Source: Taxawa tesnikishii (nom. ined.)
Taxonomy: Eukaryota; Ascomycota; Dothideomycetes; Dothideales
Assembly: GCA_030247885.1 (NCBI GenBank)
Contig: JAPDRO010000019.1
Location: 558,001-622,000, forward strand
Direction: 5' to 3'
DNA: 64,000 bases
The translations under genes and the position numbers were made by a program. Positions 35,421 to 61,286 of the stretch are shown in pieces. Below the pieces are notes generated by a model, which searched no databases, was not told the origin of the DNA, and was given only the letters and a program-made list of their open reading frames with translations. Each line of letters opens with the position of its first letter. Position 1 is the stretch's first letter.

Positions 35421-36937
35421 CACCGAGCGGTCCACCATCACCGAGCGGTCCGCCCTCACCAACATCGCGACTATTATAGACCATTGCCTCCGCACCATAA
35501 CACTGTACAAAAACATACTCTAGTCTACAGTACTATTTAGAAGCATCGCTATTATCTGGATCTACTATTTCTGTAGTGCAGGTGCGCGTGTTGTGGCTAG
35601 TCTTGCCGCAATGTCCGCAGTGCCTCTGCGTGCGTACCCTCTTCGCAGGCTGGGTAGTACCCTCGTTACCGCCATCGTCCTTATTAGCCATTAAATCCTG
35701 TACGTTACCTACTGTGAGACTCTCCTCTGTCTGAATATACTTTCTTTTGCGACTGCGCTACTCTATCAACGCCTTAATCGACTTCCGAAGACTTGCGATT
35801 TCCCTTGTCTGCAACTCTGATCTATGACCCATAATTGCCATGCCTTTGGCAAGCGAATCTATAGCCTGCAGAAGAGGCGAGATAGGCGAATCCCTATGTA
35901 GTCGCATGCGCTCGCGGACTAGCGTTGTTTACGCCTCCATCTCCTTTAGATTGGCTAGTGTTTTAGACTCCCACGGGGTAACCTCTAATAGTGCAAGTGT
36001 CGGCGTGCGAAGCACTACGTTAAGCTTCGATAGTACTCGCTCTAGGTTATAGGGAACTAAACTAGCGCCTCTAAAGCTTACCTAGATATTATCCTTTATA
36101 ATCGCCTTATTAAAAGTAATATAAAAGGCTAGTAAGAAGGCTTCTTTCTTAACTTACGTAGTAAAGTACTATAACTAGTTATTAATCTCCGCGTTATATA
36201 CTCGCTTTAAGGAGGTAAAATAGCCTATATTAAGTAGCTATAATAAGTATAATAAGTATAAGAATATATAAAGAATAATAATCTTTTATTCTTTATAGTA
36301 GTTATAAAAGTCGTAACTATTATAGCTTTTATAACTATCTATAATTAGTAGGTAATATATACTTACTTAACGCGCCTTTATATACGCGTTAAAGTACTTT
36401 AACTACTTTAAAGTAAGCTTATTTATTATCTAGCTATTAGCGTTAGTTTTAAGTATTTAGTTATAAGGTAAATCTACGTACTAGCTTAATATAAGGACTT
36501 TACTATTAAAGATAACGAAAGGTAAGATAGCTTACTTAGTAGTATAAATACCTTAAATAATTATAACTTATTCCTAGTTACTTAGTTATACCTTTTTAAA
36601 ATTACTTCGTTTCTTAAAGCTTATAAAGACTATTTAAGCGTTAATTATACTTATTATAAAGTCTATCTTATTAAAGTTATATATATCTTCGTCTAAGATA
36701 TTATACTTTTTCTTTATCTTTTAACTAGCTTAAATTAAGGCGTTATAATACGTACGTCTTCGTTTAAGGCTTACTAATAATTATATAAACGACTACGTTA
36801 AAGCTTAACTTTCTTAGTATACGTTTTAAACTTATTTACTTAGTACTTACTAATAGGCTCTTTATTATACGTAGCTAGTAAATTATTAGCTATTTCTTTT
36901 ACTATAGTTCTTATAGCGCTTATTCCTTATAAGTTTA
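35421..36937 (-). mobile_element. pogo/Fot1-like Tc1-mariner DNA transposon remnant, truncated by insertion
   Basis: On the minus strand the last ~170 codons, ending at the stop 35533-35535, read as the C terminus of a fungal pogo-type DDE transposase: VVLRTPTLALLEVTPWESKT, PLLQAIDSLAKGMAIMGHRS and the zinc knuckle CGHCGKTSHNTRTC. From about 36,060 upward the same strand is almost pure AT yet still echoes the family (DEDIYNFNKIDF, YLLQPLDIGYF, ANNLLATYNKEPISK). It is cut at 36,938, before the N-terminal DNA-binding part. Two in-frame stops lie in the cleaner part. The C-rich tandem pair of ATCACCGAGCGGTCC at 35,420-35,455 may be the terminal repeat region. It is a dead plain DNA transposon and the oldest layer of the nest. 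Confidence 0.75.
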
Positions 36938-37883
36938 CGTTATAAAATCCCGGATTATAGTATTAGTAGTAATACTACTAATACTACTTATACTAATAAT
37001 ATTACTTATACTAGACGTTATAGTACTTACTACGTATACTAGTATATATAGTAATTACTATATATACTAATAATTCTAGTATATACTAGTATATTTAGCT
37101 TATCTTACTAAGCGAATCGTTAGGCGAATTATACTTTAACTTAGTACTACGTATATTTCTATAAGCTCCGAGTAATAACCTTATTTAAAGCGATTTAATA
37201 ATACGTACTAACTCGTCTATATAAACCGATTCGTCTATTTATATTAAGTTAGTTATATATATTAACTCGTCGATATCTATCGAGTTAGTAATATACTACT
37301 ATTAAGTTACTTAAACTAACTAAGTTATACGTTTTAACTTACTAGTATATATTAACTTATTAGCTTACCTCGACTTACTAATATACGTTAGTCTTTCCCG
37401 ACGTAAAATATATAGTATATATAGATTCTAGTAATATATAACGTTAGTACGAGAGCGTAGCCTAGTATATTTATTCTATAATATTTACTTATTTATTAAC
37501 TTTATCCTTACCTTTACTTTAACTTTCTTCTTCTTAAGCTAGGGATCTAGTAACTACTTCCAAATTACTTTAAAACTATCCTTATTAAACGGGCGATTAT
37601 TCTTACCTTATAATATAAGTATAAGTCTATTAGCCTTAGCGTAAATATTATATAACTATAAGTACTAGCCTCGTAGTAGTCCTAGTATATCTAACGTCCT
37701 TTTTTAACTCTTACTTATAAAGCGCCTTTATAAGTAAAGGTTACTACCTCTAGCGTATACTCTAACTACTCTCTAGTTTACTATTATCCTTAAGTATTTA
37801 TAAATAGTTACGTAATAGATAATAGTAAAAAGATAGTAAACTACTTAATAATTACTATACTATACTTTCTACTACGTTAAACT
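36938..37883. mobile_element. Left end of the outer (older, heavily RIPped) Plavaka/CACTA-like transposon
   Basis: The sequence matches 37,884-38,829 base for base in order, but almost every difference is C-to-T or G-to-A. The terminal repeat reads CGTTATAAAATCCCGG against CGTCACGAAATCCCGG in the inner copy. It breaks off at 37,883, where the inner copy begins, and resumes at 52,228. No reading frame survives. Confidence 0.88.
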
Positions 37884-37918
37884 CGTCACGAAATCCCGGA
37901 TCGTAGTATCGGTGGTAA
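37884..37918 (+). repeat. Left terminal inverted repeat of the inner transposon
   Basis: Begins CGTCACGAAATCCCGGATCG and pairs with 52193-52227 on the other strand over about 35 bp with four mismatches, all transitions. Confidence 0.9.
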
Positions 37919-38010
37919 TACCACCGATACCACTCGTACCAATGATACCACCTATACTAGACGTTATGGTACTTACCACGCATACTGGTATGCATGGCAA
38001 TCACTATATG
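37915..38010. repeat. Left subterminal TACCAC repeats
   Basis: Several TACCAC/GTGGTA copies are packed here, including GGTGGTA-A-TACCACC, an inverted repeat with 7-bp arms. In CACTA elements such subterminal repeats are the transposase-binding sites; that role is inferred. Confidence 0.65.
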
Positions 38011-38806
38011 TACCGATAATTCTAGTATATACTAGTACATCTAGCTTATCTCGCCAGGCGAGTCGTCAGGCGAATCGCGCTTCGACTCGGTACTACGTAT
38101 GTCTCCGCAAGCTCCAAGTAATAACCTTATCTAGAGCGATTCAATAACACGTACCGACTCGTCCATGCAAACCGATTCGTCTATCTATATCGAGTCGGTC
38201 ATATGTATCGACTCGTCGATATCCGTTGAGTCGGTGATACGCCACTATTAGGTTACCTAAACTAACCAAGTTGCACGTTCCGACTCGCTAGTATATACTA
38301 GCTTATTAGCTTACCTCGACTCGCTAATATACGTTAGCCTTCCCCGACGTGGAATACATGGCATACATAGATTCTAGCAATGTGCAACGTCGGTACGAGA
38401 GCGTAGCCTAGTACATTTGTTCTACGGTATCTACCTATCCATTAACTCCATCCTTACCTTCACCTTGGCCCTCTTCTTCTTGAGCTGGGGATCTAGTAAC
38501 TGCTTCCGAATCGCTTTGAAACTGTCCTCATCAAACGGGCGATCATCCTTGCCTTATAGTGTAGGCACAAGTCCATCGGCCTCAGCGTAGATACCATACA
38601 ACCACAAGTGCTAGCCTCGTGGTGGTCCTAGTATGTCCAACGTCCTTTTTCAACCCTTGCCCATGAAGCGCCTTTGCGAGTGAAGGTTGCTGCCTCTAGC
38701 GTGCACTCCGACTGCCCTCCAGTTTGCTGTTGTCCTTGAGTATCTGCAGACAGCTGCGCAACGGATGATGGTAGGGAAGATAGCGAACTACTTGATGATC
38801 GCCGTA

Positions 38807-39970
38807 CTATGCTTCCTGCCGCGTCAGACTGTCGTTCGGGGGACGCTCCGCCCTAAGCGGGCTCCGGAACCCTTGCTCCTGCGGTAGCTTTGACTGCGTT
38901 GCCGTGTCCCGACTCGTTAGGTCATCGTCCGACTCTACATCGTCCGACTCGCGGGGCATGGCGTAGTCTATAGCAGCTCTGTAGCTAGATTTCGATGGAG
39001 AAGACGGCTGTCCCTTGCGAAGACTGGCTTTGTTCAGATCTTCGCCGCTGTCAATTTCCTCACTGTTCGAGCTCTCCTCAGAAGTCAGTCCAGCAAGTGT
39101 ATTTGCCCATTTCTGCATGTCCGTCACGTCAACGAATTTGTCCATGTATGGGTCCTTCTTAAGGGTCGCTAGCACGGCTTCGGTAAGGCGGCTCTGGATT
39201 AGCTCCTGACGTTCTGAACATTGGGTTGACTAGGTCCTCTACTTCTCCTCGAACAGTTCTACCGCCTCGTTCGAGTCGAAGTCCGGATATATCGGCTCGC
39301 CAGTCTTATCGGATCTGCACGTTCCAGTAGCCCAGCTGTTGAGGAATGACTGCAAAGTAGCACAGACCGACACTATAAGGAAGGGCGACAGTGGTCGAAA
39401 TAACTTAGCCGTTAACGGATGGACACTAGCTCGGCCTACTCCAAAGTATGCGGACCGGATGCTCTCCATTATCAAATGGCTAGTATACCTCTTGGCCTAC
39501 GTTCGAATCAGCTTCTAGTATCTAGCGAAGAACAACGTTAGTACACTTTTCCTGTCCTTGCACTCGAACAAGGCGTTCGGTATATGCTTACGGGCCTATT
39601 TCTTCCTGAATGCGACGCTGCGATGCCGCGAGCAGACTAGCCTTTCGAGTGTGGCCTTGATTGAAGCGGTAGCAGTGCTCCTACTCTTGCGAACGGCTTC
39701 GCGAAGCTAGTGTACGCTTAGTATTATACCTGTTCCGTCGGTCTTTCAATGTCTTACCTTAAATCTCATGCCTTCATGCATGGTTACTAGAATGCTCTGT
39801 AGAGGGTTAGTCTTTAGCTTTTCGTCTCGGACTCCCGCCTACTCGCCCTCGGCCATCTCGAGAAGTATAGCTTCCGCTTGTAAGGTAGGAAACATTGACT
39901 GTTCGCAGTGTCCGTTGTGCGTGCGAGCGATGAGTCGTATACGCACTTCCGAGTATATCTCGCGCTAGTC
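38807..39970 (-). pseudogene. DUF6532-like gene inside the inner transposon
   Basis: On the minus strand an exon with EIYSEVRIRLIARTHNGHCE, MFPTLQAEAILLEMAEGE and ILVTMHEGMRFK is joined across a 51-bp GTAAGA...CTAG intron (39707-39757) to LREAVRKSRSTATASIKATL. Then come HLIMESIRSAYFGVG, LFRPLSPFLIVSVCATLQSF and LNSWATGTCRSDKT, the pattern of the fungal DUF6532 domain (Pro-x-x-LALVATxIxxxLxxWxTG). An acidic Ser-rich tail ends at 38807. In-frame TAGs sit where CAG is likely (RKK-ARKHI, ARY-KLIRT, IRT-AKRYT). DUF6532 has no known function. It shares the element with the transposase. The first exon is not resolved; it may extend to about 40.4 kb. Confidence 0.55.
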
Positions 39971-40329
39971 TAGTGGCATTACTTATCCTTTCCCTATGTT
40001 CACGCTATAGTGTCCTGGTTAGTCTAGTATACTACTATCTTGCGAGCCACTCGCTCGGCCGCCGGATTGTAAAGAACCAATGTCGATTGCGTCGACGCCG
40101 GCGCCTGTTATGCCTACGTCTCGTTTTCTTTTTCGACTAGAAGGCATTTCCTTAGAGAACGTAAGTAATAGCGCTGCCGCCGATAGCATACCTACTTACC
40201 TCCTCCCATACTGCCCCGGAAAGACTAGGGACATACGACCGGCCTCCGCTTCTGTTAGTACTATTAGGCGTAATGTTAGCGTACGTTCGTTAAACACGTA
40301 GTCGCTTATTATGTGTCCTGAACTCTCCT

Positions 40330-41160
40330 AGTGCCATGCTACTAAGATATCGTACTCGTATACTAGCGGGATAGTAGCATATAGACGTAGAGTACTACTT
40401 GCTCTCTTGGTGTCAGTCTGGAGTGATAGTAGTAGATGTAGTATAAGCTTTCATCGAACTAGGCGCGTACGGATTTGAGTTGAGTCTAGTGGTTTCAGCG
40501 TGCTAACCGACGTAAGGGAACGTCATCTTTCGCAAGGAATCGTTAGCTAACGCGATATCGTGCAAAGTCTAGTTCGCGGGATGTAGCCGAGCTAACTAGC
40601 GTTCATTTGGAGTAAGCCTGGCAGCTAACTCGCTATGCTATTGTTCGATATGCGAAGTAGTTCTCCCTGCTAGCAGGAAGCTAAGCATAGATGTCGGGGC
40701 CTAAGTCTTTGGCAATGTCCGACGATCCTAGCCCTCTAGGCACTAGGGTGTTTAACACCGCCGATCGTGTTAACGTTAATGTAAGCCGAGCTTCGAGACA
40801 CTATATAGCGAGTAGTGTTACTTGACGGAAGAGACCCGACAGACTTGTATCTAATTAGTTGGCTGTCTACTCAGTCGACTCGGAAATTGGTGGGGACCCC
40901 GCCCCTGTCCGACTCGGAACGTGAATCGTGGAGATCGCCGACTCGGGACGCGAGTCGCCCATATCGTCGAATCGCCGCGGACGATTCGGCAATCTCTTAC
41001 GAGTTTGCGCATCTACAGCGGGCGGCGACGCACCGAAGGACTTAAGTCTCTTGCCTTTGATCCCTTACCCGCATGCTTTGCTATATCCTCTAAGCCTCGA
41101 CGGCGCTCCCAGTCAGAATAGTGTACTTTCATGCAAACCATTCGCATAGACACTCTCTTC
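40330..41160. other. Inner transposon, no resolved gene
   Basis: Rich in CGACTCG and CTAG motifs. Short frames on the plus strand (40815-41149) overlap each other and show no family features. It may hold the promoter or first exons of the DUF6532-like gene. Confidence 0.35.
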
Positions 41161-42600
41161 TTCGTACAATACCCCTCGTCTATGCGCTTCACTTAATCAC
41201 TCGACGCGACTCGGTGGGGACGGGCAGTAGTTTGACAATATGCCTACGTAGTAGCCTCGCGTAGTTACGGATCCTGTCGTTGTCCAATCTATTAGGATTG
41301 ATCTTCTTGTCGGTTCTAGTATTCGGTTTGTCTAGATGGTCTTGCACGCGTCTCTTGAATCGTGCCTCTTACAGCCCGGCGAGCTCCTCCGTGTAGGCTT
41401 CTCTAATGCCGTCTCCGTTAACGGTCCATGGCTTCTTTGCGGCCGTCTCTAGTTGGAATGCGCGACAGCTTGCTTAGTGTTACTACTCGAGAATAAGCGA
41501 GAGGAAGGCGTCGACGAGCCGATGACTTTTATAGACCGGCTAGATATATAGGCCGTTCATGGCTCTAGACATTCTGACGCAGTCGGTACTAGTGGCATAA
41601 TAAAGAAAGTCAGAAGTTACCCTGAGAGCGTCTTGTGTACTAAGACTGCCTTCCATTGCCGCTCGTTGTCTATCGAAGGGCGGTCTCCAATCTAGTCATT
41701 GTCCCATCCGAGGAGATCGGCCTCGCGTTGGAAACCATGGTCGGATTCTAGTATCGATATGAACATGTCCCAGTCTAGATCTTCTATCGTAATCGCGCTC
41801 GAAGAAGTACTACACGGCCAACCGCGCGCTAGTTCGCAAGGTCGACAAAGCGCTTTAAAAGTGCCGTCCCTTCGCACAACCGACATCATTCCTTGCCACG
41901 TCTCATGTTTTGTGGTTGCCATGGAGGTTTGGGGAGCACTGGCGGATAGATGGGTGTCGTCTAGTAAGTAGTGTTTCGGCTGCGCATCTTTCTCTCCGTT
42001 TACGCACTCTGTATCCTTGCTCTTAGGGAGTCCTTTGCGCCGTCGTCGGAAGTTCGTGCTTACACAGTATACCAGGTCCCGAAAGAGTGCTTGACCCTTC
42101 TCCGTCCGCATGATCTCAACCGTATCTGGGAAGCGACTTTGGGTCCACTTAGACGCAAAGATGCACGTAAACATCTCCTTGTGTATGGCGTTCTTTTTGG
42201 AAATCGAGTAGAATGTCTGCCCAAGCAAGCCTCTTTGTGTAATCTCGTGTTCTACGCGTGCATAGAATTCTTTGTAGCCATCGTCATCTAGACCGAGACC
42301 CTCTCGAAGACTACCGTATCTAGGTTGACTATCTGGCGACTAAGTAGATATAGGTTTAGTGATTCGTGTTATTATTGTCGTCCGAGTCGTCTTACTTGGG
42401 GTAGCCGGTCTGTCTGAGTTGGTGCCATGTTGACTGACGGTAGAAGATCGCAGTTGTGTCTTGTTGAAAAACGAGGTGGACATTGGTACGGTATAGTTGG
42501 ATCTGTTGATCGTACGGCCTCGTTATGCCGATATATTGTGTAAGGTGTAGTAGCTTGATGCGAAGGGTTGCCGTCATGTATACTACTATATTCGGCCTAG
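41161..42600 (-). pseudogene. Unrecognised conserved-looking gene inside the inner transposon
   Basis: The clearest part is an open stretch at 41692-42300 on the minus strand (DDDGYKEFYARVEHEITQRG, then ISKKNAIHKEMFTCIFASKW, FRDLVYCVSTNFRRRRKGLP and ITIEDLDWDMFISILESDHG). Upstream, 42392-42577 reads LRIKLLHLTQYIGITRPYDQ and FYRQSTWHQLRQTGYP, with a likely TAG-for-CAG between. Composition is that of a soluble, basic protein; I recognise no domain. It is retained in parallel, RIPped, in the outer copy (55,080-55,990). It could be a transposition accessory factor, but that is only position-based inference. Confidence 0.4.
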
Positions 42601-44114
42601 ATCTTAATATTCTAGGTTATTGTCGTGCGTATATGTCCTTATACTCATTACCTCGAGTTAATAGGACTACGCTTACGTCGTGCACGGGTTAACCGAGGTC
42701 GCTTGTATATATACCCTTGGAAAAGCGACGTCGGCTCATCGCGCTTCTCCTTGTCATCGAAAAGAACACTCTATAAATGCAATGACCTCGTTTAATGTTG
42801 GCTTCGACAATGGCAATGTTTGGGCGTATGGTTCGTACAATCACTCTCCTCTACTTGTATGTAACATCTCTATCGCTAGATGCGCTAAACCGCAGTAGAT
42901 CCGAACGGCCGGCTGTTCACATCAACCATAGCTTGTATACTTACTTCCGTTGTCGTCGTATGCGAGCTTGTAACACTAATAATCCTCGCCAGGCTAGGCC
43001 TACCTCTAGGATCGATGGCCGAGGTATGGGGACTTCTTATTAGCCGGGGACGTTCTCTCCGTTAAGGCGACTATAATGGCGCGTCAATGGTCTAGTTTGG
43101 ACGGCCGCATGGCGAGATGTTGTCTTCAGTTTGAGGAAGCATCTCCATGTAGGCATATGCGCCTAATACACCGATCAGAACGTTTGTTGCTGTTTCCCTA
43201 TCTCTTTGTCATAAAGCCTACATGTTAGCTAATAGCGTGATTGTGGTGGCACATCATCTATATCGGTCTCTTTGTGCTCGCCACGTCATGTATCGGGTTG
43301 CATAGTTTGGCGCGTTCTCAGTGCAGTAGACGGCGCATGTTTAGTGGATTAAGTCGACGAGTCGGTGCCACTACGTGTAAATCGCCTTTCGAATCGCCTT
43401 TGTCCCTTGCATTCATGTGCTGCCACGTGCAGACCCGCCTCACATGATACGAGTGCATAGGGCAGATAGGAAAGCGATTCGCGAGCAACGAGTCGAATAG
43501 CGATTCGTTTCTGCTACTGGCCTTTTAACCTACTAGTGAACCGAGTTTGCTCTATGTTTGCATACAGGTACCCTATTAGTCCGATTGCACTCATCGTTTA
43601 TCTTATTTACAAATACACACACATACACACACTAATAATCTTTCTTACGTTTACTGCCTCTTTCATCCACTACTATATAGAGCTTTCCTCCTTTGCTACG
43701 TTCTTCTCCTAATCACAAATCACTACGTCTAGCTATATCGGTTACGTGCAGCACTAGTAATATAGTAACTCGTCACTCTGCGCATCAACTGTACGTTTCT
43801 CGGCGATCTACCAACTGTCTCGCCTTACACTCCGTCTAAACCTCCTCCGACTGTCGCTTGCGCGTCACCTTACGCGCCGCAAGGCTTCTACCAAAGCTCT
43901 TCATCTACGCTACCATCGGGAAATACTGCCGTTCTAAGATCCTTCACTTAGTTAGTTTAGCTACACACTTAGTACTCGCGTACGTTGTTCGCTCTTTAGG
44001 CTATCAATCTGGGACTAACAACCGACATCTCTAGATTACTTACTCCACCAACCCTCTCATCCATCGGCCCTACCGCTTCGACTGCTCCTTCCTCTATTCC
44101 ATGTTCTAGTCATC
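42601..44114. other. Inner transposon, central non-coding stretch between divergent genes
   Basis: About 1.5 kb between the unknown minus-strand gene and the plus-strand helicase gene, probably containing both promoters. A CA-rich microsatellite lies at about 43,612-43,632. No convincing frame. Confidence 0.4.
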
Positions 44115-47100
44115 ATGGCGGCCTATTCCGGAGTGTTCAACGTATCCGACGACATAACCTGGACGGAAGATAGCATCATAACATGGTTGCGTACCAAAAT
44201 AGGCGAGAGGTCCGACTCGTTCTTTAGGACGTTCTTCAACTGGAACGCAGATGACTTCCGCGCCGCGGCAACCACTACTATAGACAAATGCAGGAGTGCC
44301 GGTATAGACATGGAAGCCCCCGCCTCGGTGACAAGAAACTCTGGATCGAGCAACGCTTTAAAGCCGAGAGCTTAATGATAAATGACCCCGCCGACACATT
44401 CAAATATTACGGCGGAACGCAACCGCAATAGTTTACTAAGAGAGTGCTTCGTGGTCCAAACCGCACCGCGGAAGTTCTGGTAGACGTGAAAGGGAGCGTA
44501 CTCCAGGCGTGGATTGCAAAGGCATGGGGAGCCCGGAAGAAAGGAAACAAAGGTTTAACACCTACTCGCTCTACGCTACGGTCCCAGACTCGGTCGAGGA
44601 GCCCTATAGCAACATCGTCGTCTAGCCACCGCAACCGCAGCCCTCTCAGGTCACGTTTGTCGAGTTCAAGCCTTGGAGCCGATGACTTCGCAAACCTCAA
44701 CTTCGGTCTGTTACGCCCCGGTAATGAAGACGCGATGGATGTTGACGACCTACCGTTCGTGGTGCACACGCTACATGAAATGCCTCTCATCATTATAGTT
44801 ATCGAGCAAACCAGGCCGCATCTCCGCATTGACCGGAATGCCTATTATGGTCAGACTAGTGCGTTCCTTACACTAGATGGAGCTACTTAGTGGGACACGT
44901 TTACTGAGTTTCTGGGCACGTCGGGCCATGAGGATTGGCCAGTGTTTTAGTTCAATCCATGGGCTAGACATATACACTCTCGAGTCGATAACAGGTTCAA
45001 GCTTAGTACTATAGTGATGCAACTCTGGAAATTCTGGCGTGGAAGGAGCAGTGCTATCTAGCTCTTTCTCGCTCCCAACGAGGACACTGTCTAGCTTGTA
45101 CCCTACGAAGAGAAAGGTAAAGTCATTACGCTATCCTAAGTGGTATACTACTGACATGTCAATAGTTAAGACGCGCTTAGCTAACAACGTTCATGATGTA
45201 GTCATTTAGACTCTAGAAGAGCAACTCACGGAGGACGATTTGGTCCAATAGCGACTAGCGAATGAGGACGCTCAGCGGCTCGCGGATGAGGAAGCTCAGC
45301 GACTCGCGGATGAGGAAGCCCGGCGACTCGCGGATGAGGAAGCTTAGCAACTCGCGGATGAGGAAGCTTAGCGACTCGCGGATGAGGAAGCTTAGCGACT
45401 CGCGGATGAGGAAGCTTAGCAATTCGCCGATGAGGAAGCTTAGCGCGGCGATAAAGAACGCGATGTTGAAGAGACCGGATGGCCGTGGATGATTCCTGCC
45501 ACATTAGACGACGACATTGAGGTTACCGAAAGCCCTACCGCACCCTCTATCGATCTCAGTAGATACAACTACTCGAAGAATGAGGCACTATCGTCCGCGA
45601 AGCTGCGCCCTGAGATACGAGAGGGTTCAACCGAAGAAGCCTTAGCGAAGGTAACAGATCTAAAACAAATCGACGTCGATACCTGGAACGCTGTATGCAG
45701 GTTTTTCGGCCATGACCCCACTAACATACATCCAAGATCCGGCGTGTTCTTCCCGGGATAGAAGCGTAGTGCTAAGCTTCTGTTATACCAATTCTATACG
45801 GTTGGATGGCTTCTAAAGAGGCTACTACAGGGATCTGAATGCGTCTTTATTAGACACTCTATAGGCATAGGCAAGACAGCTATCGTCCTTGCACTCTTGA
45901 AGCTTCTAGCGAAGGTAGCTAAAGATGGAGCGGTAGGTGTCGCGCATCTATTGGATTCTAGCTTCTATCTGAATCCTAACGCGCTCACTCAAGTCGATGG
46001 ACCATTACGACGTACCCAATTAGGACCTATGCTAGTGATTACTCCTACCTACCTGTCATCCAACTGGGTCAACGAATGGCGCAAGTTTTCTACAGTTATC
46101 TTAGAGAAATCTACTGGAGTCAAGATGATTCTAATGTTACTAGTCGGCCTGTTAACTAACAGGGCTATAGAATCCGAATTCAAGGATTGCTATAGGCTTG
46201 ACGATGTGGTCAGGCCTGAAGACCTGCCGCCTCGAGAGTAGCTAGTAGCCACTTACGGATCAGAGGAAGATGTACCTACAACGATCACAGCCAAAATTCT
46301 GCTGGAACCTAATGCGTCACATAAACCTGAGCCGTGGCAATCGGAATGGTGTATGCTTACTACCCAGGCAATTGCGGTATCAAAACTCGCGGTTAAAGTA
46401 CTAGGAGACTCAAACGTCCACGGAGAAATCTACGCCCGTTGGAGTGTCGTCGCATTCGACGAGTACCATACGAACTGCAACCCTAATTCGTCTGTTTGGT
46501 CCAAGTTGGCGTACCTTCCTAGCGATCCGAATTTCATTTTCATAAGCGGAACTCCGTTTCCGCCGACGCTTGCTTTGGTCCCTCCTCTTCTCGCTACTTA
46601 CGCTCGCTACTATGAACCAAAGTCCGGAACAAAGTTTATAACCATCGCGGCGAGCAAATGGACCCCGAGCAACGCACGCACTACGAATCTACCGTTTCGA
46701 CCGAACCTTGCCCAAGCAAAGCAACGCGCTTTGTCTCGAACCGGCTTTATACCAATCGCTCAAAGTGTAGCGATTATCGACAAGGCTTGGAACAAGAAGA
46801 ACAAACTCTCCGATGCGATCGCCAAATCGGCACAGGATAAAGAGGACGAAGAGGACGAAGAGGGACGCAACAGTGATAACGAGCAGGATGCCCCCGGATA
46901 GTGTCCGCGTCGAGCTGACACTAGAGTTGCAACGTGCGATACAAGTCGTAGCGAAGGGCGCTGAAAAGTACATGATCTGCTTCCCTACGGAGCTTTGATA
47001 GTAGGTCGATCCAAATTCCGAGGGCTAACTAGCACTAGACTTCCTACCGCATGCCATATGGGATTAGTATTTTGACATCGACGAGAAGTTCCGTCGCGAC

Positions 47101-47872
47101 GGCCTAGGGGACGAATGGTTGCAATCGGTAAAGGAAGTCTAGACGAAGACTAACAAACACTCTAAAGCTCAGACGGAGTGGCTGTTCTTCTAGATTATTC
47201 GCAAATTTCGCATCTGGACGGTATTCCCTTGTCTGTACACTCTGATGGAGAACGACGATGAGATGAAGGCCGAGCTAAACAAAATGGACCGTGACGACGC
47301 GGCAAGGATTCTAAAGGGCGCACGGAATTCTACGTTATGGAGCCATATACACGAGATCGATCAACTCCCTCCGATGATGGCATTAAAGGACATAATCGCG
47401 CAAATACGTGGTCAACTCAACTTCTTTAAGAGGCCACGAAAGATCATCATTGCGGCTTTTGTACCATTCAACGTTATAGTGGTCTATATGGTAAGTAGTT
47501 ACTACTTACACGTACTAACAAACCGCTAATACTATCGTAGTACCTACTTTGGCTAGTAGGGCGGCCAAACTACACGGCAATTAACGATGAGAAGGACATC
47601 GCACTTGTCGCTTCATGGAACAGTCAAACCGAGCGTGACGAGTAGATTGCTAACTTCAAGACTACGACCCCTAGCTACAAAGAATAGCCTGGCATCATGG
47701 TCGCCTTAGCGACACAGATCGCGGCGGGCCTGTCCCTCGACCCAGCGGACGTGGTGATTATCGTCGATCCCGAGTTTGACATGGCAAAGGTTGAGCAGGT
47801 TATGGCTAGAGTGAGACGTATGAGGCTCACGCAAAGGCTCCCTACACTGAAGGGTTTCGTCTAATATGCAGT
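44115..47872 (+). pseudogene. SNF2-like helicase gene inside the inner transposon
   Basis: ATG 44115 (MAAYSGVFNVSDDITWTEDS) opens an N-terminal part, then a Ser/Arg-rich linker, an LADEEAQR tandem repeat (45,258-45,449) and a helicase core: HSIGIGKTAIVLALLK (Walker A) near 45,860, MLVITPTYLSSNWVNEWRKF, SVVAFDEYHTNCNPNSS (DExH) and FIFISGTPFPP. The second lobe near 47,700 reads MVALATQIAAGLSLDPADVV, then IIVDPEFDMAKVEQVMARVR, matching SNF2 motifs V-VI (AGGxGLNL, DxxWNPxxxxQAxxRxxR). One intron is likely around 47,491-47,541. TAG stops recur. Such helicases remodel chromatin or move along DNA; in a transposon it could aid excision or expression in heterochromatin, which is speculation. Confidence 0.6.
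45258..45449 (+). repeat. 24-bp tandem repeat, eight units
   Basis: Eight direct units of the type GCGGATGAGGAAGCTCAGCG plus ACTC, encoding LADEEAQR repeats. Units 1 and 2 keep CAG at the Gln codon, unit 3 has CGG, units 4-8 have TAG. The array shows the CAG-to-TAG change inside one locus. Confidence 0.9.
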
Positions 47873-48479
47873 GCTCCATGGTGTAACCTTTAGGATTGGA
47901 TGTGTAAGCGCCAGAATTCAGCCACTCATATCCGCGATTAGGTACACCGTGTGGCCGGACAGACTGGCCATGGTGGCAATTGAACAGGTACCTGGAGCGC
48001 AGATAGTACTTGGAAGAAGACATTGCGGAATAGCACGGAGGATCCCTTATGTCTAGCGACACGATTCGCTAGGTCTCATGCTTGGTTTTGCTTCTTTCTC
48101 TGCGATTATGAAGGTAGATAGACACAATGTCATTAGCTTTCTCATGCCCTTTACTCCGTCCGCGACATGTTGTAGTTCTTACTACGAACTATGAGTCGTT
48201 CATGATTCGAGAGTTATCAAACGAGTCGCAAGGCGACTTACATACTTGTAGTGTTCCTTTAGGGGTATAGGGACAGGACGTGGGAAGAGATAATCTAGGG
48301 TAGATCTAGACGCGCCGAATTGCAACACGAATCGCAACACGAATCGGCAAAAGACGAATCGGCGGAAGGCGAATCGGAAGATCTGATCTAATCTAATCGA
48401 GCGCCCGGGCGTCTGGGGTTAACCCTCTTCGGCTTATATATATGCGACTTTAACACGATAGTAGACATACACTGCCACC
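47873..48479. other. Inner transposon, spacer before the transposase
   Basis: About 600 bp holding the helicase 3' end and the transposase promoter, with a TATATATA box 35-45 bp before ATG 48480 and repeated CGAATCG motifs at 48,320-48,390. Confidence 0.5.
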
Positions 48480-51400
48480 ATGGTCCGACCGTATGCCTGC
48501 AGTGCATGTGGACGCGTGTGTAAACAATCGTACGGCCTACGGATGCACATCGCTACGTGCAGGGCACGCCATTCGTATAACCCCGACACGCAACTGTTAG
48601 CATAGAGGATACTACTCGTCCACTGACAACCGATATATCAACCGACATCACGGACGGAGAAACGGCTGCACTACAAATTGAAGATACACCGCAGCTACAG
48701 TTCAATCATATCAACGAAGGCTATAGTATACAAAACGTAACCGGCGCAACCGCAGACGATAGTGAGTTCGAAGAACTACTAGACGTTTTTCAAGACGTCG
48801 CCTACAACCTACCAACCGCGGAAGAGGAGGATGACCCATATAGAGACATACTACAGAGTTCTGCACTAGAGGACGAACGAGACAGCATTGGAACCGGCGG
48901 CTCTATAGCTTACGGTAGTAAGGGTAGACTGTCGTCGTCTACCTCGCGTATAGAAGGTGAAACGAGGACGTTTAAAGAAGTTACAGGGAGAGCGGCAGGT
49001 AGAGGAGTAAATAGGTAAGTGGTATTGCATATCAACACCGTTTCTCTAGGTTCTGACACAAACACATATGTACGCCTCCCGTATTTGCGGACCCGGAACG
49101 ACTCGCCGGCTTTACTAGCGATGCGGATGTTGCGTTCGCGAACTGGCTACACTAGGAAAACATATCCAAAAACGCAATCACTCGCCTAATGCGTAAACTA
49201 AGGCTACATGCGATCACGCAACACTTTAGCTAGCGTTCGGCGGCCGAACTCGAAGAGAAGATAGCTACAATGGGAAGAGGAAGAAACGTCGCACAATGGA
49301 ACATCCGGCCTTTTACGCTACCTTCGACGAACATATCACAGGGGACTAAAAGATACTACTTTCGATACAGACGAGTCGAAGACGCGATTCGGTTCTTCCT
49401 AGGGCATCCTAGTTTTAGTAACGACCTCCAATTCTCTCCTTACCAGATATGGACAGGCGATAGAAACGCGCGCAGGGTATACAACAAGATGGCTTCGGCT
49501 AATTGGTAGTGGGACACTCAAGAGTAGCTTGGCCGTGATGATGCCACAATTATACCGTTGATCGTATCCACCGACAAGACACAGGTGACGAACCATTAGG
49601 GAGACTAATTAGCTCATCTAGTGTACCTCACTATAGGCAACCTCATAGCGGATGTACGGAACTCTAACCAAAGGCCTGGATCTATGCTTCTTGCTTTGAT
49701 CCCGATAGTAAAAGAGAAGGACGCTACTACTCGAGCTCGTGTATTCCATGATTGTCTTAAGGTCCTGTTCGACCCTATTAAGGAGATCCTATACAATGGT
49801 AGCAGAGAGCTACCGTGCAGTGACGGATGGACGCGTCAGTGCTTCCCCATTCTCGCTGCAATGACTCTAGACTACGAAGAGCAAGCCCGGGTAATAGGGG
49901 TTAAGAGTGGTCGACAATGTACTATATGTAGCATACGTCCAGGTGATCGAGAGGACCTCGAAGCGTGGGCTCCCTGGAGGACATATGAGGAGACTCAACA
50001 GCAAATCAGTTACCAACGGATGAACCCTACCGACCGCGACCGAGAGGACTGGGTACACGATATCGACTCGTTCGCTTTCGGCCATCCATGGGTGAACATA
50101 CACGCAACAATGATGGTTGATATCCTATACCAGCTGCTTAAGGGCGTGCTTAATCACGTACGGCAATGGTTGATTGCCCTACTAGAGGACTTGCTTCCTA
50201 AAAGGCACGGCAAAATATACAAGGCGGCAATCGAAGAAGCTAGACAGCGCGGAATACGATTTCGAGGCAAGATACTACTAAAGGACTTCGTCGCAGATCT
50301 CATCGACAGGCGTTTTGCGGCAGTCTCGCCGTACCGCGGCTTACGTGTATTCGAGCAGTTATCAAGTAGAAGACAGATGACAGGGAAAGAGCTTAAGAGC
50401 ATCCTACGACAGCTACTGCCAGTATTTACCCCATTCTTGGAGGAGGCTAGAGCTACGGAGGCAATCCTATTTATACGCGCGGTCGTCGACTTTGTCTTAC
50501 TCTCGCTCTATCATAGTTATGACGACGACACCCTCCGCTACATGACGTTAGCGCTGTTTCGTATGAACTAACACAAGGAGATATTCCGAAGGTATCGGCC
50601 TAATACAATAGAAGACACGGAAGGCCATTTCAACTTCCCTAAATGGCATGTAATGACACACTATACGGACATGATTAGACGACTCGGATTAGCGCTAGGA
50701 CTCGATATAGGCCACGGTGAGCATAACCACGTAACGTTCGTCAAGTAGGGGTACAAGCGTACTAACAGGAAGGAGGGCTGGGAGGATCAGCTTACTATGT
50801 GGAACGATCGTAGTCTAAGCATGGCTGCCGAATTCGACATCGGACCGTACCTACGTAACCTTACTACAGCGGAGAAGATAGAAGAAGCAGATGAACCGGT
50901 AAGGCCAACCGAGGCAGTCAATGTGAAGCGTTATTTTGGGTGGCCGCCGACGGCGCGACTAAAACCACACGTAGCGCGGGAGAAATGGCGGCAAGTCAAC
51001 GAAGTGCAAATGCTCCTTGGGCCCACAGCCGGTGTCGTCTTTCGACAAGCGTTGGCCGTGTTCGTACGCGAATCGAGATCACCGGAAGCCGGTGCCACCT
51101 AAGCCAGCATATACGATCCTGATCGGTTGGAGGAAGACGACTCGTGGATATTGCCGTATTGGGTACAGTTTCACCCCTCATTGCGGTGTAGAAAAGCTAC
51201 TGGTAAAGATCCTGATGATCCCGATAGCACTGAACATGATATAGTCAGGTGCGCGCCGAACTGGCAAAACATCAATGGCAACGCAAGACATGATTGGATA
51301 TGGGTATAGGAGTACGCAACGGTCACCTCCGAGTCGTGCGACAATTCGGCAAACACTATATCCCAAGTAGCGTTCGACGGACGTCTGCCAGCGCGCTTGC

Positions 51401-51810
51401 AGCTCATCGTTACTATAGAAGACAGGCAGCGCGACAAAAATGGCAACATGACCACGCGGAGATACACAGGTGCGTTGGTCGATCTATATGCACCTAAGAA
51501 CCCACACGGCCGCGCAGATGCCGTACATGGGATGACTGTCATCAAGCCGATGCCACTACCACCTCGGAGAGGCTTACGACGCTTGGGTGGACGAAGAATA
51601 TATCCCTTGACCGGTATTTACTATAGTATCCACGTAGTATCTACGTTAGCACTATGGAACGACAAGAGCGGTGAAATGTATATTAATAATACTGCCGATT
51701 GGGAGACGTACAATTTCCTATGGAACGCGGACTGGGAGGAGGAGGCAGCTCGAATAGCCGTCGACTCGAGGAACGCCCGCATAAGAGCGGCGAAGGTTGT
51801 GACACACTAA
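48480..51810 (+). pseudogene. Plavaka-like (CACTA superfamily) transposase with N-terminal zinc finger
   Basis: ATG 48480 follows a TATATATA box (48,434-48,446). The N terminus MVRPYACSACGRVCKQSYGL, then RMHIATC, is a C2HC finger like that starting Plavaka transposases. Later blocks are PFTLPSTNISQGTKRYYFRY, MLLALIPIVKEKDATTRARV, ELPCSDGWTRQCFPILAAMT and DYEEQARVIGVKSGRQCTIC, then HPWVNIHATMMVDILYQLLK and GHFNFPKWHVMTHYTDMIRR. These match the order expected of Plavaka transposases (RxFHDxxxxxxxPIK, CxDGxxRxCFPxLA, DYEEQ, CTxC). The longest intact piece is 49,621-50,571. TAG stops split it elsewhere. A likely intron begins at 49,015. The enzyme would bind the TIRs and catalyse excision and insertion. 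Confidence 0.7.
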
Positions 51811-52104
51811 AGAGCTAAACACTACTCATAAGCAAGATGACCTTAGTATCTGCCGAATCGTTAACTCGCTCGCCAAACGAATCGCAAGGGTAGCGACTCG
51901 CGCGGTCTTATATACGGCTCGTATATTAGACGACTCGCGTACAGTAGGGAGATAGTAGGCTATAGTTAGGTTAGTAGCCGATTCGGTCAACGATTCGGTC
52001 AACGATTCGTAGACTAGGCGATGAATAGGTCTATAGGAAGAGAGTTATCGATTCGCTTTGCACAAAGTTATTATAACAATGTTTCTCGTAGTATAGTATA
52101 GTCT

Positions 52105-52192
52105 CGCATAACGTGGTATATATTTGTATAACGTGGTAAGCGTGGTAAGCGTGGTATACCTGGTATATACGGTACGATTATTCGTACTACGC
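52105..52192. repeat. Right subterminal GTGGTA repeats
   Basis: Repeated GTGGTA/GTGGTAAGC copies (AACGTGGTATATA, AACGTGGTAAGCGTGGTAAG) mirror the TACCAC cluster at the left end in inverted orientation. Confidence 0.7.
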
Positions 52193-52227
52193 TTACCACT
52201 AATACCGCGATCCGGGATTTCGTGACG
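52193..52227 (-). repeat. Right terminal inverted repeat of the inner transposon
   Basis: Ends CGATCCGGGATTTCGTGACG, the exact complement of the first 20 bases at 37,884. It is followed directly by the CT target duplication. Confidence 0.9.
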
Positions 52228-55200
52228 CTATCGTTTAGAAAGACGCTTTACCTTAAGTAAGCTCTAGAACTCTTACTCTTATAGTAGCTTTAATTACGTT
52301 ACTATATCCCGACTCGTTAAGTTATTGTTCGACTTTATATTATTCGACTTATAAAGTATAGCGTAGTTTATAGTAACTCTATAACTAGATTTTAATAAAA
52401 AGATAATTATCCCTTATAAAGACTAGCTTTATTTAGATCTTTACTACTATTAATTTTCTTACTATTTAAGCTCTCCTTAAAAGTTAGTCTAGTAAGTATA
52501 TTTACCTATTTCTATATATCTATTACGTTAACAAATTTATTTATATATAGGTCCTTCTTAAGAGTTGCTAGTATAGCTTTAGTAAGGTAACTCTAAATTA
52601 GCTCTTAATATTTTAAATATTAGGTTAACTAGGTCCTCTACTTTTCCTCGAATAGTTTTATTACTTCGTTCGAGTTAAAGTCTAGATATATTAGCTTACT
52701 AGTCTTATTAGATTTATATATTTTAGTAGCCTAACTATTAAGGAATAACTATAAAGTAACATAGACTAATACTATAAGGAAGGGTAATAATAGTCGAAAT
52801 AACTTAGCTATTAATAAATAGATACTAACTTAGCTTACTCTAAAGTATATAGACTAGATACTCTTTATTATTAAATAGCTAGTATACCTCTTAGCCTACG
52901 TTCGAATTAGCTTTTAGTATCTAGCGAAAAATAACGTTAATATACTTTTCTTATCCTTATACTTAAATAAGGCGTTTAGTATATACTTACGAGCTTATTT
53001 CTTCCTAAATACGACGCTATAATACTACGAGTAAACTAGCCTTTCGAGTATAGCCTTAATTAAAGTAGTAGTAGTATTCCTACTCTTATAAATAGCTTCG
53101 CGAAGCTAGTATACGCTTAGTATTATACTTATTCCGTTAGTCTTTTAATATCTTACCTTAAATCTTATACCTTTATATATAGTTACTAAAATACTTTATA
53201 GAGAGTTAGTCTTTAACTTTTCGTCTTAGACTCTCGCCTACTTGCCCTCGGCTATCTCGAGAAGTATAGCTTCTACTTATAAGGTAGGAAATATTAACTA
53301 TTTATAGTATTCGTTATATGTATAAGTAATAAGTTATATACGTACTTCCGAGTATATTTCGCGCTAGTCTAGTAGTATTACTTATCCTTTTTCTATGTTT
53401 ACGCTATAGTATTCTAGTTAGTTTAGTATACTACTATCTTATAAGCTACTTACTTAGCCGCTAGATTATAAAGAACTAATATTAATTACGTCGACGCTAG
53501 CGCCTATTATACTTACGTCTCGTTTTCTTTTTTAACTAAAAGGTATTTCCTTAGAGAACGTAAGTAATAGCGCTACTACTAATAGTATACTTACTTACTT
53601 CCTCTTATATTACCTCGGAAAGACTAGGGATATACGACTAGCCTCCGCTTCTATTAGTACTATTAGGCGTAATATTAGCGTACGTTTATTAAATACGTAG
53701 TTACTTATTATATGTCCTAAACTCTCCTAGTACTATACTACTAAGATATCGTACTTATATACTAGTAAGATAGTAATATATAAACGTAGAGTACTACTTA
53801 CTCTCTTAATATTAGTCTAAAGTAATAGTAGTAAATATAGTATAGGCTTTTATTAAACTAGGCGCGTACGGATTTAAGTTAAGTCTAGTAGTTTTAGCGT
53901 ACTAACTAACGTAAGGGAACGTTATCTTTTATAAGGAATTATTAGCTAACGCGATATTATATAAAGTCTAGTTCGTAGGATATAGTTAAGCTAACTAGCG
54001 TTTATTTAAAGTAAGCTTAGTAGCTAACTTACTATACTATTATTCGATATATAAAGTAGTTTTCCCTACTAGTAGGAAGCTAAGTATAAATATTAGGGCT
54101 TAAGTCTTTAGTAATATCCGACGATTTTAGCCCTCTAGGTACTAGGGTATTTAATACTACTAATTATATTAACGTTAATATAAGCTAAGCTTCGAGATAC
54201 TATATAGCGAGTAGTATTACTTAACGGAAGAGACTTAATAGACTTATATCTAATTAGTTAGCTATCTACTTAGTCGACTCGGAAATTAATAAGAACTCTA
54301 CTCTTATTTAACTTAAAACGTAAATCGTAGAGATTACTAACTTAGGACGTAAGTTACTTATATCGTCGAATTACTACGAACGATTTAGTAATCTCTTACG
54401 AGTTTACGTATCTATAGCGGGTAGTAATATACTAAAGGACTTAAGTCTCTTACCTTTAATTCCTTACTTATATACTTTACTATATCCTCTAAGTCTCGAT
54501 AGCGCTCTTAGTTAAAATAGTATACTTTTATATAAACTATTTATATAGATATTCTCTTCTTTATATAATACTTCCTTGTTTATATGCTTTACTTAATTAC
54601 TCGATATAACTCGGTAGAAACAAGTAGTAGTTTAATAATATACTTACGTAGTAGCCTCGCGTAGTTATAGATCCTATTATTATTTAATTTATTAGGATTA
54701 ATCTTCTTATTAGTTCTAGTATTTAGTTTATTTAAATAGTCTTATACGCGTCTCTTAAATCGTACCTCTTATAGCCCGGCGAGCTCCTCTATATAGACTT
54801 CTTTAATACTATTTCCGTTAATAGTTTATAGCTTCTTTATAGTTATTTCTAGTTAAAATACGCGACGGCTTACTTAGTATTACTACTCGAGAATAAGCGA
54901 AAGAAAGGCGTCGATAAGCTAATAACTTTTATAGACTAGCTAGATATATAGGCCGTTTATAGCTCTAGATATTCTAACGTAGTTAGTACTAGTAGTATAA
55001 TAAAGAAAGTTAAAAGTTACTTCGAGAGCGTCTTATATACTAAGACTACCTTCTATTACTACTCGTTATTTATCGAAGGGTAATCTCTAATCTAGTTATT
55101 ATCTTATCCGAGGAGATTAGCCTCGCGTTAAAAACTATAGTCGGATTTTAGTATCGATATAAATATATCCTAGTTTAAATCTTCTATTATAATTACGCTC

Positions 55201-57586
55201 GAAGAAGTATTATATAACTAACTACGCGCTAGTTCGTAAGGTTAATAAAGCGCTTTAAAAGTACTATCCCTTCGTATAACTAATATTATTCCTTACTACG
55301 TCTTATGTTTTATAGTTACTATAGAGGTTTAGGGAGTACTAGCGAATAGATAGGTATCGTCTAGTAAGTAGTATTTTAGCTACGTATCTTTCTCTCCGTT
55401 TACGTACTTTATATCCTTACTCTTAAGGAGTCCTTTACGCTATTATTAAAAGTTTATACTTATATAGTATACTAGGTCTCGAAAGAGTACTTAACCCTTC
55501 TTCGTCTATATAATCTTAACTATATTTAGGAAGCGACTTTAAGTCTACTTAGACGTAAAGATATATATAAATATCTCCTTATATATAGCGTTCTTTTTAG
55601 AAATCGAGCGGAATATTTACTTAAGTAAGCCTCTTTATATAATCTCGTATTTTATACGTATATAGAATTCTTTATAGTTATCGTTATTTAGACTAAGACT
55701 CTCTCGAAGACTACTATATTTAAGTTAACTATCTAGTAACTAAGTAGATATAAGTTTAGTAATTCGTATTATTATTATTATCCGAGTCGTCTTACTTAGG
55801 GTAGCTAGTCTATTCGAGTTAGTACTATATTAACTAATAGTAAAAGATTATAGTTATATCTTATTAAAAAACGAGGTAAATATTAGTATAATATAATTAG
55901 ATCTATTAATTATACGGCCTCGTTATACTAATATATTATATAAGGTATAGTAGCTTAATATAAAGAGTTACTATTATATATACTATTATATTTAGCCTAG
56001 ATCTTAATATTTTAGGTTATTATCGTACGTATATATCCTTATACTTATTACCTCGAGTTAATAGGACTACGCTTACGTTATATACGAGTTAACTAAGGTC
56101 GCTTATATATATACCCTTAGAAAAGCGACGTCGACTTATTGCGCTTTTCCTTATTATCGAAAAGAATACTTTATAAATATAATAACTTCGTTTAATATTA
56201 ACTTCGATAATAGTAATATTTAGGCGTATAGTTCGTATAATTACTTTCTTCTACTTATATATAATATCTCTATCGCTAAATACGCTAAACTATAGTAGAT
56301 CCGAACGGCTAGTTATTTATATTAACTATAGCTTATATACTTACTTCCGTTATCGTCGTATACGAGCTTATAATACTAATAATCCTCGCTAGGCTAGGCC
56401 TACCTCTAGGATCGATAGCCGAGGTATAGGGACTTCTTATTAGTCGGGGACGTTCTCTCTATTAAGGCGACTATAATAGCGCGTTAATAGTCTAGTTTAG
56501 ACGGCTATATAGTAAGATATTATCTTTAGTTTAAGGAAGTATTTCTATATAAGTATATACGCTTAATATACTAATTAGAACGTTTATTACTATTTCCTTA
56601 TTTCTTTATTATAAAGCCTATATATTAGCTAATAACGTAATTATAGTAGTATATTATCTATATTAGTCTCTTTATACTTGCTACGTTATATATCGAGTTA
56701 TATAGTTTAGCGCGTTTTTAATATAGTAGATAGCGTATATTTAGTAAATTAAGTCGACGAGTTAGTACTACTACGTATAAATTACCTTTCGAATCGCCTT
56801 TATTCCTTATATTTATATACTACTACGTATAGACTCGCCTTATATAATACGAGTATATAAGGTAAATAGGAAAGCGATTTATAAGTAATAAGTCGAATAG
56901 TAATTCGTTTCTACTACTAGCCTTTTAACTTACTAGTAAACCGAGTTTACTTTATGTTTATATATAGGTACTCTATTAGTCCGATTATACTTATCGTTTA
57001 TCTCATTTATAAATATACATATATATATATATTAATAATCTTTCTTACGTTTACTACCTCTTTTATTTACTACTATATAAAACTTTCCTCCTTTATTACG
57101 TTCTTCTCTTAATTACAAATTACTACGTTTAGTTATATTAGTTACGTATAGTACTAGTAATATAGTAACTCGTTACTTTGCGTATTAACTATACGTTTCT
57201 TAGCGATTTACTAACTATCTCGCCTTATACTTTATTTAAACTTCCTTTAACTATTACTTACGCGTTACCTTACGCGCTATAAGGCTTTTATTAAAGCTCT
57301 TTATTTACGCTACTATTGGGAAATACTACCGTTTTAAGATCCTTTACTTAGTTAGTTTAGCTATATACTTAGTACTCGCATACGTTATTCGCTCTTTAAG
57401 CTATTAATCTAGGACTAATAATCGATATCTTTAAATTACTTACTTTACTAACCCTCTTATCTATTAGTCCTACTACTTCGACTACTCCTTCCTCTATTTT
57501 ATATTCTAGTTATTATAGCGGCCTATTTTAGAGTATTTAATATATCTAATAATATAACCTAGATAGAAGATAGTATTATAATATAG
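52228..57586. mobile_element. Outer transposon copy, middle part, heavily RIPped and truncated
   Basis: Collinear with 38,828-44,185 of the inner copy at a constant offset of about 13,400 bp, with nearly all differences C-to-T or G-to-A; no reading frame survives. For example inner CCGACTCGTTAGGTCATCGT becomes CCGACTCGTTAAGTTATTGT. It stops at 57,586, just inside the helicase-gene equivalent, where an LTR begins. The remaining ~8 kb and right terminal repeat should lie beyond the retroelements, outside the window. Confidence 0.88.
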
Positions 57587-57813
57587 TGTGGTGGGGAGAA
57601 CCCTATGTTGGGTTAGGTCAAGACTGCAGAAGGCAGCTACGCAAGTAGTAATGGAGACAGCAGTTAGTAAGACATAAGACAAGAACAAGACGTAGAAAGA
57701 ACAGTTGTTGATTGAATGAGTGACTATCTTGTGTGCGGACTAAATAAGTAGGAATCAAAGGTAGCTTCCACGTGACTAACAACCCATGACTATCCAGCGG
57801 CTACCCTACCACA
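57587..57813 (-). repeat. LTR (3' LTR of a retroelement on the minus strand)
   Basis: A 227-bp block that, on the minus strand, begins TGTGGTAGGGTAGCC and ends CTCCCCACCACA (TG...CA ends with a short inverted TGTGGT/ACCACA). Immediately before it on that strand lies a purine tract ending AAGGGGAAGGGAGGTA, as a polypurine tract should. It interrupts the outer DNA transposon. Its partner LTR is not in view, so age by LTR divergence cannot be judged; lack of RIP suggests it is younger than the outer copy's decay. Confidence 0.75.
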
Positions 57814-57985
57814 TACCTCCCTTCCCCTTGAGTGCTCGTCCCCTAAGCACTATACAGACCGTACTCATTACATGTCTCTAGGAGTCATGTAATCCACCTG
57901 TCCATTAGGGAAAGACGAGGGCAGAAACTGGCGAGGGTAGCATGGACAACCACTCTAGTCAAGATGAGCGGCTGAGATGAGACTC

Positions 57986-59245: not shown

Positions 59246-59287
59246 GACGGCTCTGTAATCGTATTTTTTAGCTGGAGGAACATGGTG

Positions 59288-60655: not shown

Positions 60656-60700
60656 GGTGAGTCGCAGGTGTAGTCAGACTTCAGTAAATATGTAGTAAGG

Positions 60701-61286
60701 AAATGCTGTCTTCTAGTAGGTTTCTGAGGTGTCCGCAACTGCCGTACTTGCGAATCGTGGCAGCGTTGTTGGTAGTAGCTTTGGGGCGTGGTTTCTAAAG
60801 GATTTATAGTCCAGCATGTGAATTTGGATGTTTGTCACGTGTTTTGCTTCCTTAAAGGGAAACACGGCTAATATCCGGAGATTTCGGTTCTGGAAGTGTC
60901 CTTCCTTTCACTTCTTTCTTGTTACCCCTTGTCACCACCATCACTTAATCCTTTCAACCTGCAGTATGAAAGGAACATCTTTTCACACAAACACAAACTT
61001 CTTATCCTGCGAGCTTTGCGCTTCTGTTTGGTAATAGGATGAGACTACTGTCTTGGGCAAACAGACAAAGGCCTTATTACGAAAGGGGAATGTGAGAATG
61101 GCAGAGAAATAGATGACAAAAGAGATTATCAAGAGAGTTGACAAAGGAAATTATCTAAAGAAATGAATGGAAAGATTGTCAAAACAATATGGAAACACAC
61201 CTCCCTTCCTTCATGAGTCTGTCCCCAGACTCAAGTTTTTATATGGCTCCCGGAGCTATGTAAAACCTAGCCTGCCAGCTGGCTAG
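60701..61286 (-). repeat. 3' end of a Ty3/Gypsy element with probable LTR
   Basis: Just downstream (minus strand) of the integrase frame comes a purine tract ending GAAGGAAGGGAGG at about 61,198-61,215, then TGTGTTTCC, which looks like the start of a second, unrelated LTR running left. The LTR's far end is not resolved. This tract parallels the one at 57,814, so two different retroelement 3' ends are present. Confidence 0.45.

Follow-up and report, generated by a model that had tools for sequence, protein, structure and literature searches.

The window analysed here is a 64,000-nucleotide stretch of the genome of Taxawa tesnikishii (contig C11:558001-622000; the genome comprises 29.37 Mb in 34 contigs, designated below by C-numbers). 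The host, an ascomycete (Dothideomycetes, Dothideales), is described as a black micro-colonial fungus of desert soil crusts (PMC11195213). Positions 37884 to 52227 hold a 14.3-kb Plavaka-type transposon, a single unit bounded by terminal inverted repeats (TIRs) and flanked by 2-bp target duplications. Between its ends lie genes for a DUF6532-domain protein (A), a protein of unrecognised family (B), an SNF2-type helicase/ATPase (C) and a Plavaka transposase (D) (Table 1). This copy has been mutated by repeat-induced point mutation (RIP), with in-frame stops in the searched parts of all four genes (transposase 10, helicase 2, gene B 3, DUF6532 gene 2).

Table 1. Coordinates, within the window, of the transposon's features and of the copy that surrounds it
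Feature	Position	Strand	Remarks
Outer copy, left end	36938..37883	+	Same family, heavily RIPped
Left TIR, 20 bp	37884..37903	+	CT before, at 37882-37883
Left subterminal GTGGTA/TACCAC cluster	37912..37979		5 copies; candidate binding sites
Gene A	38807..40189	-	DUF6532-domain protein, 427 amino acids in the C2 copy; 3 exons placed by hand; RIP stops
Gene B	41557..42483	-	About 308 amino acids; single exon; RIP stops
Gene C	44115..47864	+	SNF2-type helicase/ATPase, about 1,150 amino acids or more, both RecA lobes, N-terminal extension; exons placed by hand; RIP stops
Gene D	48480..51810	+	Plavaka transposase; C2HC finger at the N terminus, one long exon after it; RIP stops
Gene D, RAG1/Transib-like DDE catalytic core	49114..50859	+	Residues 20-601 of the 917-residue frame
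Gene D, C-terminal BAH-like domain	50893..51675	+	Residues 613-873; tentative
Right subterminal GTGGTA/TACCAC cluster	52113..52199		5 copies; candidate binding sites
Right TIR, 20 bp	52208..52227	-	CT after, at 52228-52229
Outer copy, middle part	52228..57587	+	Genes A, B and start of C; same family, heavily RIPped

Ends, target duplications and copies in the genome

The perfect TIRs, CT target duplication and subterminal GTGGTA clusters described in the first-pass annotation were all recovered. The inverted 20-mers at the two ends are identical, CT stands on both outer sides, and the termini read CGTCACG..CGTGACG. GTGGTA/TACCAC occurs 10 times in the outer 200 + 200 bp, compared to 3 times in the 13,944-bp interior; the largest control counts were 2 in 5000 random interior pairs and 4 in 5000 shuffles of the ends.

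Genome-wide, the exact TIR 20-mer occurs seven times, always at the ends of ~14.3-kb copies, and the reversed pattern, searched as a control, does not occur. The 20-mer is exact at both ends of the copies on C2 (14,345 bp), in the window (14,344 bp) and on C30 (14,414 bp), and at one end of the C1 copy, which has one base changed at the other. A finding that the TIR bounds only a shorter, transposase-only element would have refuted the first-pass annotation; no shorter element is bounded by the exact 20-mer at any of these sites.

BLAST with the C2 copy identified seven contiguous, near-full-length copies (C2, window, C30, C1, C24:19466, C6:36.8k and C12:6.5k). In each of those examined the helicase gene lies between the ends, which argues against its belonging to an unrelated neighbour. 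Further members of this family (family 1) are C24:144k and C1:127k, with one deletion each, and the interrupted outer copy on C11; gene matches at C9 were left out of this set of 10 copies. Both ends are kept in nine of the 10, and in eight of these nine the two 2-bp flanks match (five TA, one CT, one AA and one TT), those of C30 being unequal (AC/GC); for two of the nine, flanks were read after a one-base shift of the computed boundary.

The transposase and its three companion genes

Pfam searches used hand-spliced or single-exon gene models from the sister copy on C2, in which the transposase (917 amino acids), the main helicase exon (627), gene B (321) and the last exon of gene A (229) are open. 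This copy (C2:247317-261661) is the only one of 56 transposase matches without stops; it has escaped RIP.

Gene D matches Plavaka (PF18759) with an E value of 3.1e-73 (247 bits versus a cut-off of 26.3), and the match persists in the window copy when stops are read as X (4.4e-45). Among the families searched, Plavaka is the sole Pfam family matched by the transposase frame. The protein has the RAG1-like catalytic core fold of the CMCT clade, and its residues D272, C288-x2-C291, H531-x3-H535 and E555 fall into the pattern D-D-C(2)C-H(3-4)H-E, the first D (in SDKT) having been assigned by eye. H531, H535 and E555 are invariant among the aligned sequences, and D272 and C288 are present in at least 90%. 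The N-terminal C2HC finger noted in the first pass reads C-x2-C-x12-H-x4-C; Pfam zinc-finger matches to it were all below cut-off (best Zn_SUZ12, E = 2.1e-4, and zf-C2H2, E = 5.7e-4). The best protein match is H2203_005167 of T. tesnikishii (93% over 74% of the query). The best 120 of 139 matches include the Dothideomycetes Polychaeton citri (58% over 68%) and Meristemomyces frigidus (50% over 53%), unnamed proteins at up to 54% along almost the full length, and numerous basidiomycete relatives near 30%. A scan of viral contigs with the transposase gave no relatives, and comparison of its structure model to a viral library gave no match at E ≤ 0.001.

Gene C, hand-spliced in the C2 copy, is a frame of 1,152 amino acids that matches SNF2-rel_dom (E = 2.2e-10) and Helicase_C (E = 1.8e-5), both over cut-off. 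GMGKT, DEYH, SGTP and QVMARVRRM were read directly in this frame; we take these to be the Walker A, DExH and lobe-2 motifs, in keeping with the helicase recognised earlier. The sequence weakly matches CHD1L, DDM1 and Fft3. In the same genome, the closest SNF2 match outside these elements, probably a host gene, has only 35% identity over 100 residues. A protein search with the helicase matched only ADEEAQRL, a 24-bp tandem repeat preceding the ATPase (window 45225-45464). The repeat number may vary, given that the C30 alignment splits at this point and C30 is 70 bp longer overall. Elsewhere, in DNA of normal GC content, a 155-residue open frame (C23:54791-55255) resembles the helicase segment that precedes the ATPase (44% identity over 71 query residues) and is a relict or domesticated piece.

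The DUF6532-like block was likewise confirmed, gene A matching PF20149 with E = 1.7e-9 (38.3 bits versus a cut-off of 24). A PF20149 search of the genome, which can miss RIPped or intron-split genes, gave two matches, both within these elements. The conserved gene set suggests that some DUF6532 proteins may be transposon proteins. Gene B had been listed as unrecognised, and profile searching, the check proposed for all four translations, gave no Pfam match for it. Scoring of 546 candidates yielded only two relatives, both from metagenomes (identities 42% and 44%) and both sharing with gene B the block WQGM.S..R.DG..KALCRPCEL. A fold search with gene B returned nothing below E = 0.05 (model pLDDT 54), and a scan of viral contigs returned no relatives.

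Repeat-induced mutation and conservation of the gene set

RIP makes only transitions. Read from C2 to the window copy, 349 of the 351 differences are C>T or G>A changes, with 314 at CpA/TpG. Counts of RIP-type, reverse and transversion changes are 349:2:0 for the window, 384:2:0 for C30, 1768:1:2 for C1, 2022:2:1 for C24, 3726:0:1 for C6 and 3775:4:3 for C12. Since almost all differences among family-1 copies, which reach about 26%, are of RIP type, the copies stem from one recent burst, and as such they provide a clean natural record of RIP. It follows that comparing the inner copy with the outer one cannot show long residence. The first-pass annotation had done so, calling the helicase and DUF6532 proteins standing cargo on the grounds that the outer copy carries the DUF6532 and unknown genes at the same places. 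The outer copy is indeed complete, with all four genes, but the argument built on it is rejected; that these genes are standing parts is supported by other evidence, given below, and "cargo" is probably the wrong word.

The lower bounds for matches in this genome are 56 for the transposase, 41 for the helicase, 22 for gene B and 19 for gene A. The order A(-) B(-) C(+) D(+) is found, directly or mirrored, at 14 loci (two each on C1 and C24, the inner and outer copies on C11, and one each on C2, C6, C9, C10, C12, C18, C22 and C30), where the outer C11 locus was counted by joining two gene clusters across a long terminal repeat (LTR) element insertion. When transposase matches were merged into 34 loci, which are copies of a few families, 28 had a same-strand helicase match upstream within 9 kb and six had none. 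The helicase-transposase distance is 3504-3680 bp in 20 of the 28. One helicase match was counted for two neighbouring transposases (C10:497k and C10:501k).

A second family, at C10, C18 and C22, has all four genes in the same A-B-C-D order and also the helicase N-terminal extension (E = 2e-10 to 4e-15); its right TIR was looked for and not found. Raw identity of the family-2 transposase is 43-47%, which overstates divergence, since RIP alone takes family-1 copies to 52-57%. We therefore also computed upper bounds, in which every difference that RIP could cause is counted as identity (Table 2; controls, 17-18% for shuffled pairing and 100% for two RIPped family-1 copies). By this measure, divergence between families is faster in the accessory proteins than in the transposase. 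A third, more distant group has upper bounds relative to C2 of 61% for D and 48% for C; at the one locus read (C29), genes B, C and D are present. A model from three un-RIPped sequences gives 25.6 bits for gene B at C29, versus at most 3.5 in 20 triplet shuffles, and scores lower still in reversed DNA and other RIPped DNA. For the two helicase lobes the scores are 30.8 and 66.0 bits, and reversed DNA has no comparable match; for gene A there was no signal above controls at this locus.

Table 2. Family 2 compared to the C2 copy: transversions at codon positions 1/2/3 and RIP-allowing upper bounds on identity
Gene	C10	C18	C22	Chi-square P	Upper bound
D	78/68/206	77/67/204	78/69/207	about 1e-22	80-81%
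B	29/28/69	29/29/67	28/28/67	2e-6 to 1e-5	66-68%
C	156/140/211	138/122/187	139/130/187	3e-4 to 2e-3	53-54%
A	54/54/72	52/52/76	41/46/64	0.04 to 0.17	59-62%

As RIP makes only transitions, transversions between families are not its work, and we asked how these are distributed over codon positions (Table 2). Within family 1 the test had no power (each of the seven copies compared, the outer one among them, has 1 to 7 transversions). Between families, transversions favour third positions, whereas unaligned codon pairs gave 432/458/450. One caveat here is that protein-guided alignment itself somewhat favours a third-position excess; moreover, C10, C18 and C22 have a common history and so are not three independent tests. 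We read the pattern as indicating protein-level constraint on D and B, and probably on C; gene A shows little sign of constraint, and its case is undecided.

A multi-gene transposon and its relatives

Eukaryotic cut-and-paste transposons are generally regarded as requiring little beyond a transposase, with the host supplying access to chromatin. Here the same set recurs in diverged relatives within one genome and thus looks like a built-in multi-part machine rather than random cargo; "core component" is probably the better term, least surely so for the DUF6532 gene. We regard the identity of the element and its core gene set as very well supported. In the reading we favour, with a probability of roughly 0.8, the window holds a RIP-inactivated copy of an otherwise autonomous Plavaka-clade (CMCT/RAG1-like) DNA transposon whose four genes make up a transposition machine. 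The transposase would pair the ends at the TIRs and GTGGTA repeats, contacting them with its finger or by way of protein A or B, and its RAG1-like DDE core would cut and re-insert the element. For proteins A and B, roles in end binding, regulation or complex assembly are most likely. We lean towards a role for the helicase in the element's own transposition; that this role is specifically a chromatin step is conceivable, if slightly disfavoured. The SNF2 ATPase might allow excision and insertion of a 14-kb element in chromatin, either by sliding or stripping nucleosomes or by remodelling the synaptic or strand-transfer complex; the BAH-like tail, if real, may bind nucleosomes or modified histones. 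More speculatively, a Dothideomycete Plavaka lineage may possess its own chromatin machinery (a transposase-BAH fusion, an SNF2 remodeller and two accessory proteins) as one complex predating the family split.

The helicase, DUF6532 protein and gene B might instead be true cargo, that is, host genes captured once by an ancestral Plavaka and carried passively. Precedents include large multigene Plavaka-associated repeats in Amoebidium (PMC11244446) and TET/JBP genes captured by fungal DNA transposons (PMC12730594), and both the faster change of the accessory proteins and the scant constraint on gene A fit this idea. We consider it improbable, however, because gene order, strand and spacing are maintained from one diverged family to another, third codon positions are over-represented among the RIP-independent changes in B and C, the nearest non-element SNF2 match is so distant, and DUF6532 was found only in these elements, in a search that can miss RIPped or intron-split genes. 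The accessory genes could also counter silencing or regulate the element, for example if the SNF2 protein and BAH-like tail oppose heterochromatin or RIP, rather than take part in cutting and joining. The weak CHD1L, DDM1 and Fft3 matches and the heavy RIP in this host are consistent with such a function, and Kojima (2025) proposes the same for TET/JBP genes on fungal transposons (PMC12730594). Any protection must nevertheless be poor, given that a single transposase match lacks stops; the present data do not separate a silencing role from one in transposition, and we judge the former rather unlikely. Chance juxtaposition of nested, independent elements mistaken for one has next to no probability: the locus is truly nested (inner copy, outer copy, LTR element), but the same 14.3 kb stands between the same ends in seven contiguous near-full-length copies, of which six are at other loci, a finding that refutes it.

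The element thus belongs to a known class and is real and well bounded; its four-gene set is unusual and conserved. It resembles Plavaka as treated by Kojima (2025, PMC12730594) in transposase family (PF18759), 2-bp target duplication (2-3 bp in Plavaka, alongside TIRs) and signature (catalytic D, D and E, the C(2)C and H(3-4)H motifs lying after the second D and before E), and some of those families likewise carry an extra gene (TET/JBP). It differs in its fixed set of SNF2, DUF6532 and gene B. Its termini fit neither PlavakaA (TGT..ACA) nor PlavakaB (CATCA..TGATG) as given there, and we file it in neither. In the main text of that paper, "helicase" occurs solely with reference to Helitrons, and SNF2 and DUF6532 do not occur. 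EnSpm/CACTA elements have CAC..GTG termini and 3-bp duplications, unlike the CGT..ACG and 2 bp seen here, and from EnSpm/CACTA, Transib and RAG1 within the CMCT clade the element is set apart by its termini, its accessory proteins and possibly its BAH-like tail.

AcademH and KolobokH, also found in fungi, are likewise helicase-carrying DDE TIR transposons, but according to the portions of the sources covered (PMC10799480, PMC10045372, PMC9587614) their transposases belong to other superfamilies, KolobokH carries RecQ, and AcademH has 9-10-bp duplications; the present transposase matches neither Academ nor Kolobok among Pfam families. The Amoebidium repeats are likewise large multigene units beside a Plavaka transposase, but reach 50 kb and contain tandem gene clusters with tyrosine recombinases, and no SNF2/DUF6532 set appears in the part of PMC11244446 covered. 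One publication, in the part covered, lists DUF6532 and Plavaka together among Pfam domains. No Plavaka-SNF2 link was found in the partial Plavaka literature surveyed, nor any such element in that on transposons with SNF2, helicase or BAH; the original descriptions of Plavaka (Iyer et al. 2014, cited in PMC8290104) and AcademH lie outside this scope, and priority is unproven. Among described DDE transposons this might be the first in which an SNF2 remodeller is a core part, the AcademH helicase being outside the comparison. Whether a transposon can bring its own chromatin remodeller becomes directly testable with this conserved combination of RAG1-like transposase, SNF2 motor, DUF6532 protein and gene B.

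Several further observations concern the nested locus. The outer Plavaka copy is interrupted by an 11,172-bp LTR-type element (window 57588-64000, on to C11 window-coordinate 68759) with 226-bp LTRs that are 99.6% identical and an apparent 5-bp duplication; its in-window part is un-RIPped by composition. The outer copy resumes beyond the window, at window-coordinates 68760-76762. In 36001-37883 and 52228-57587, CpA/TpG is nearly gone (index about 0.01-0.16 per kb) and GC is about 0.26-0.31, so that the inner copy, of the same family but mildly RIPped, sits amid very heavy RIP. At C10:456k-506k, several RIPped Plavaka copies from at least two families are densely nested.
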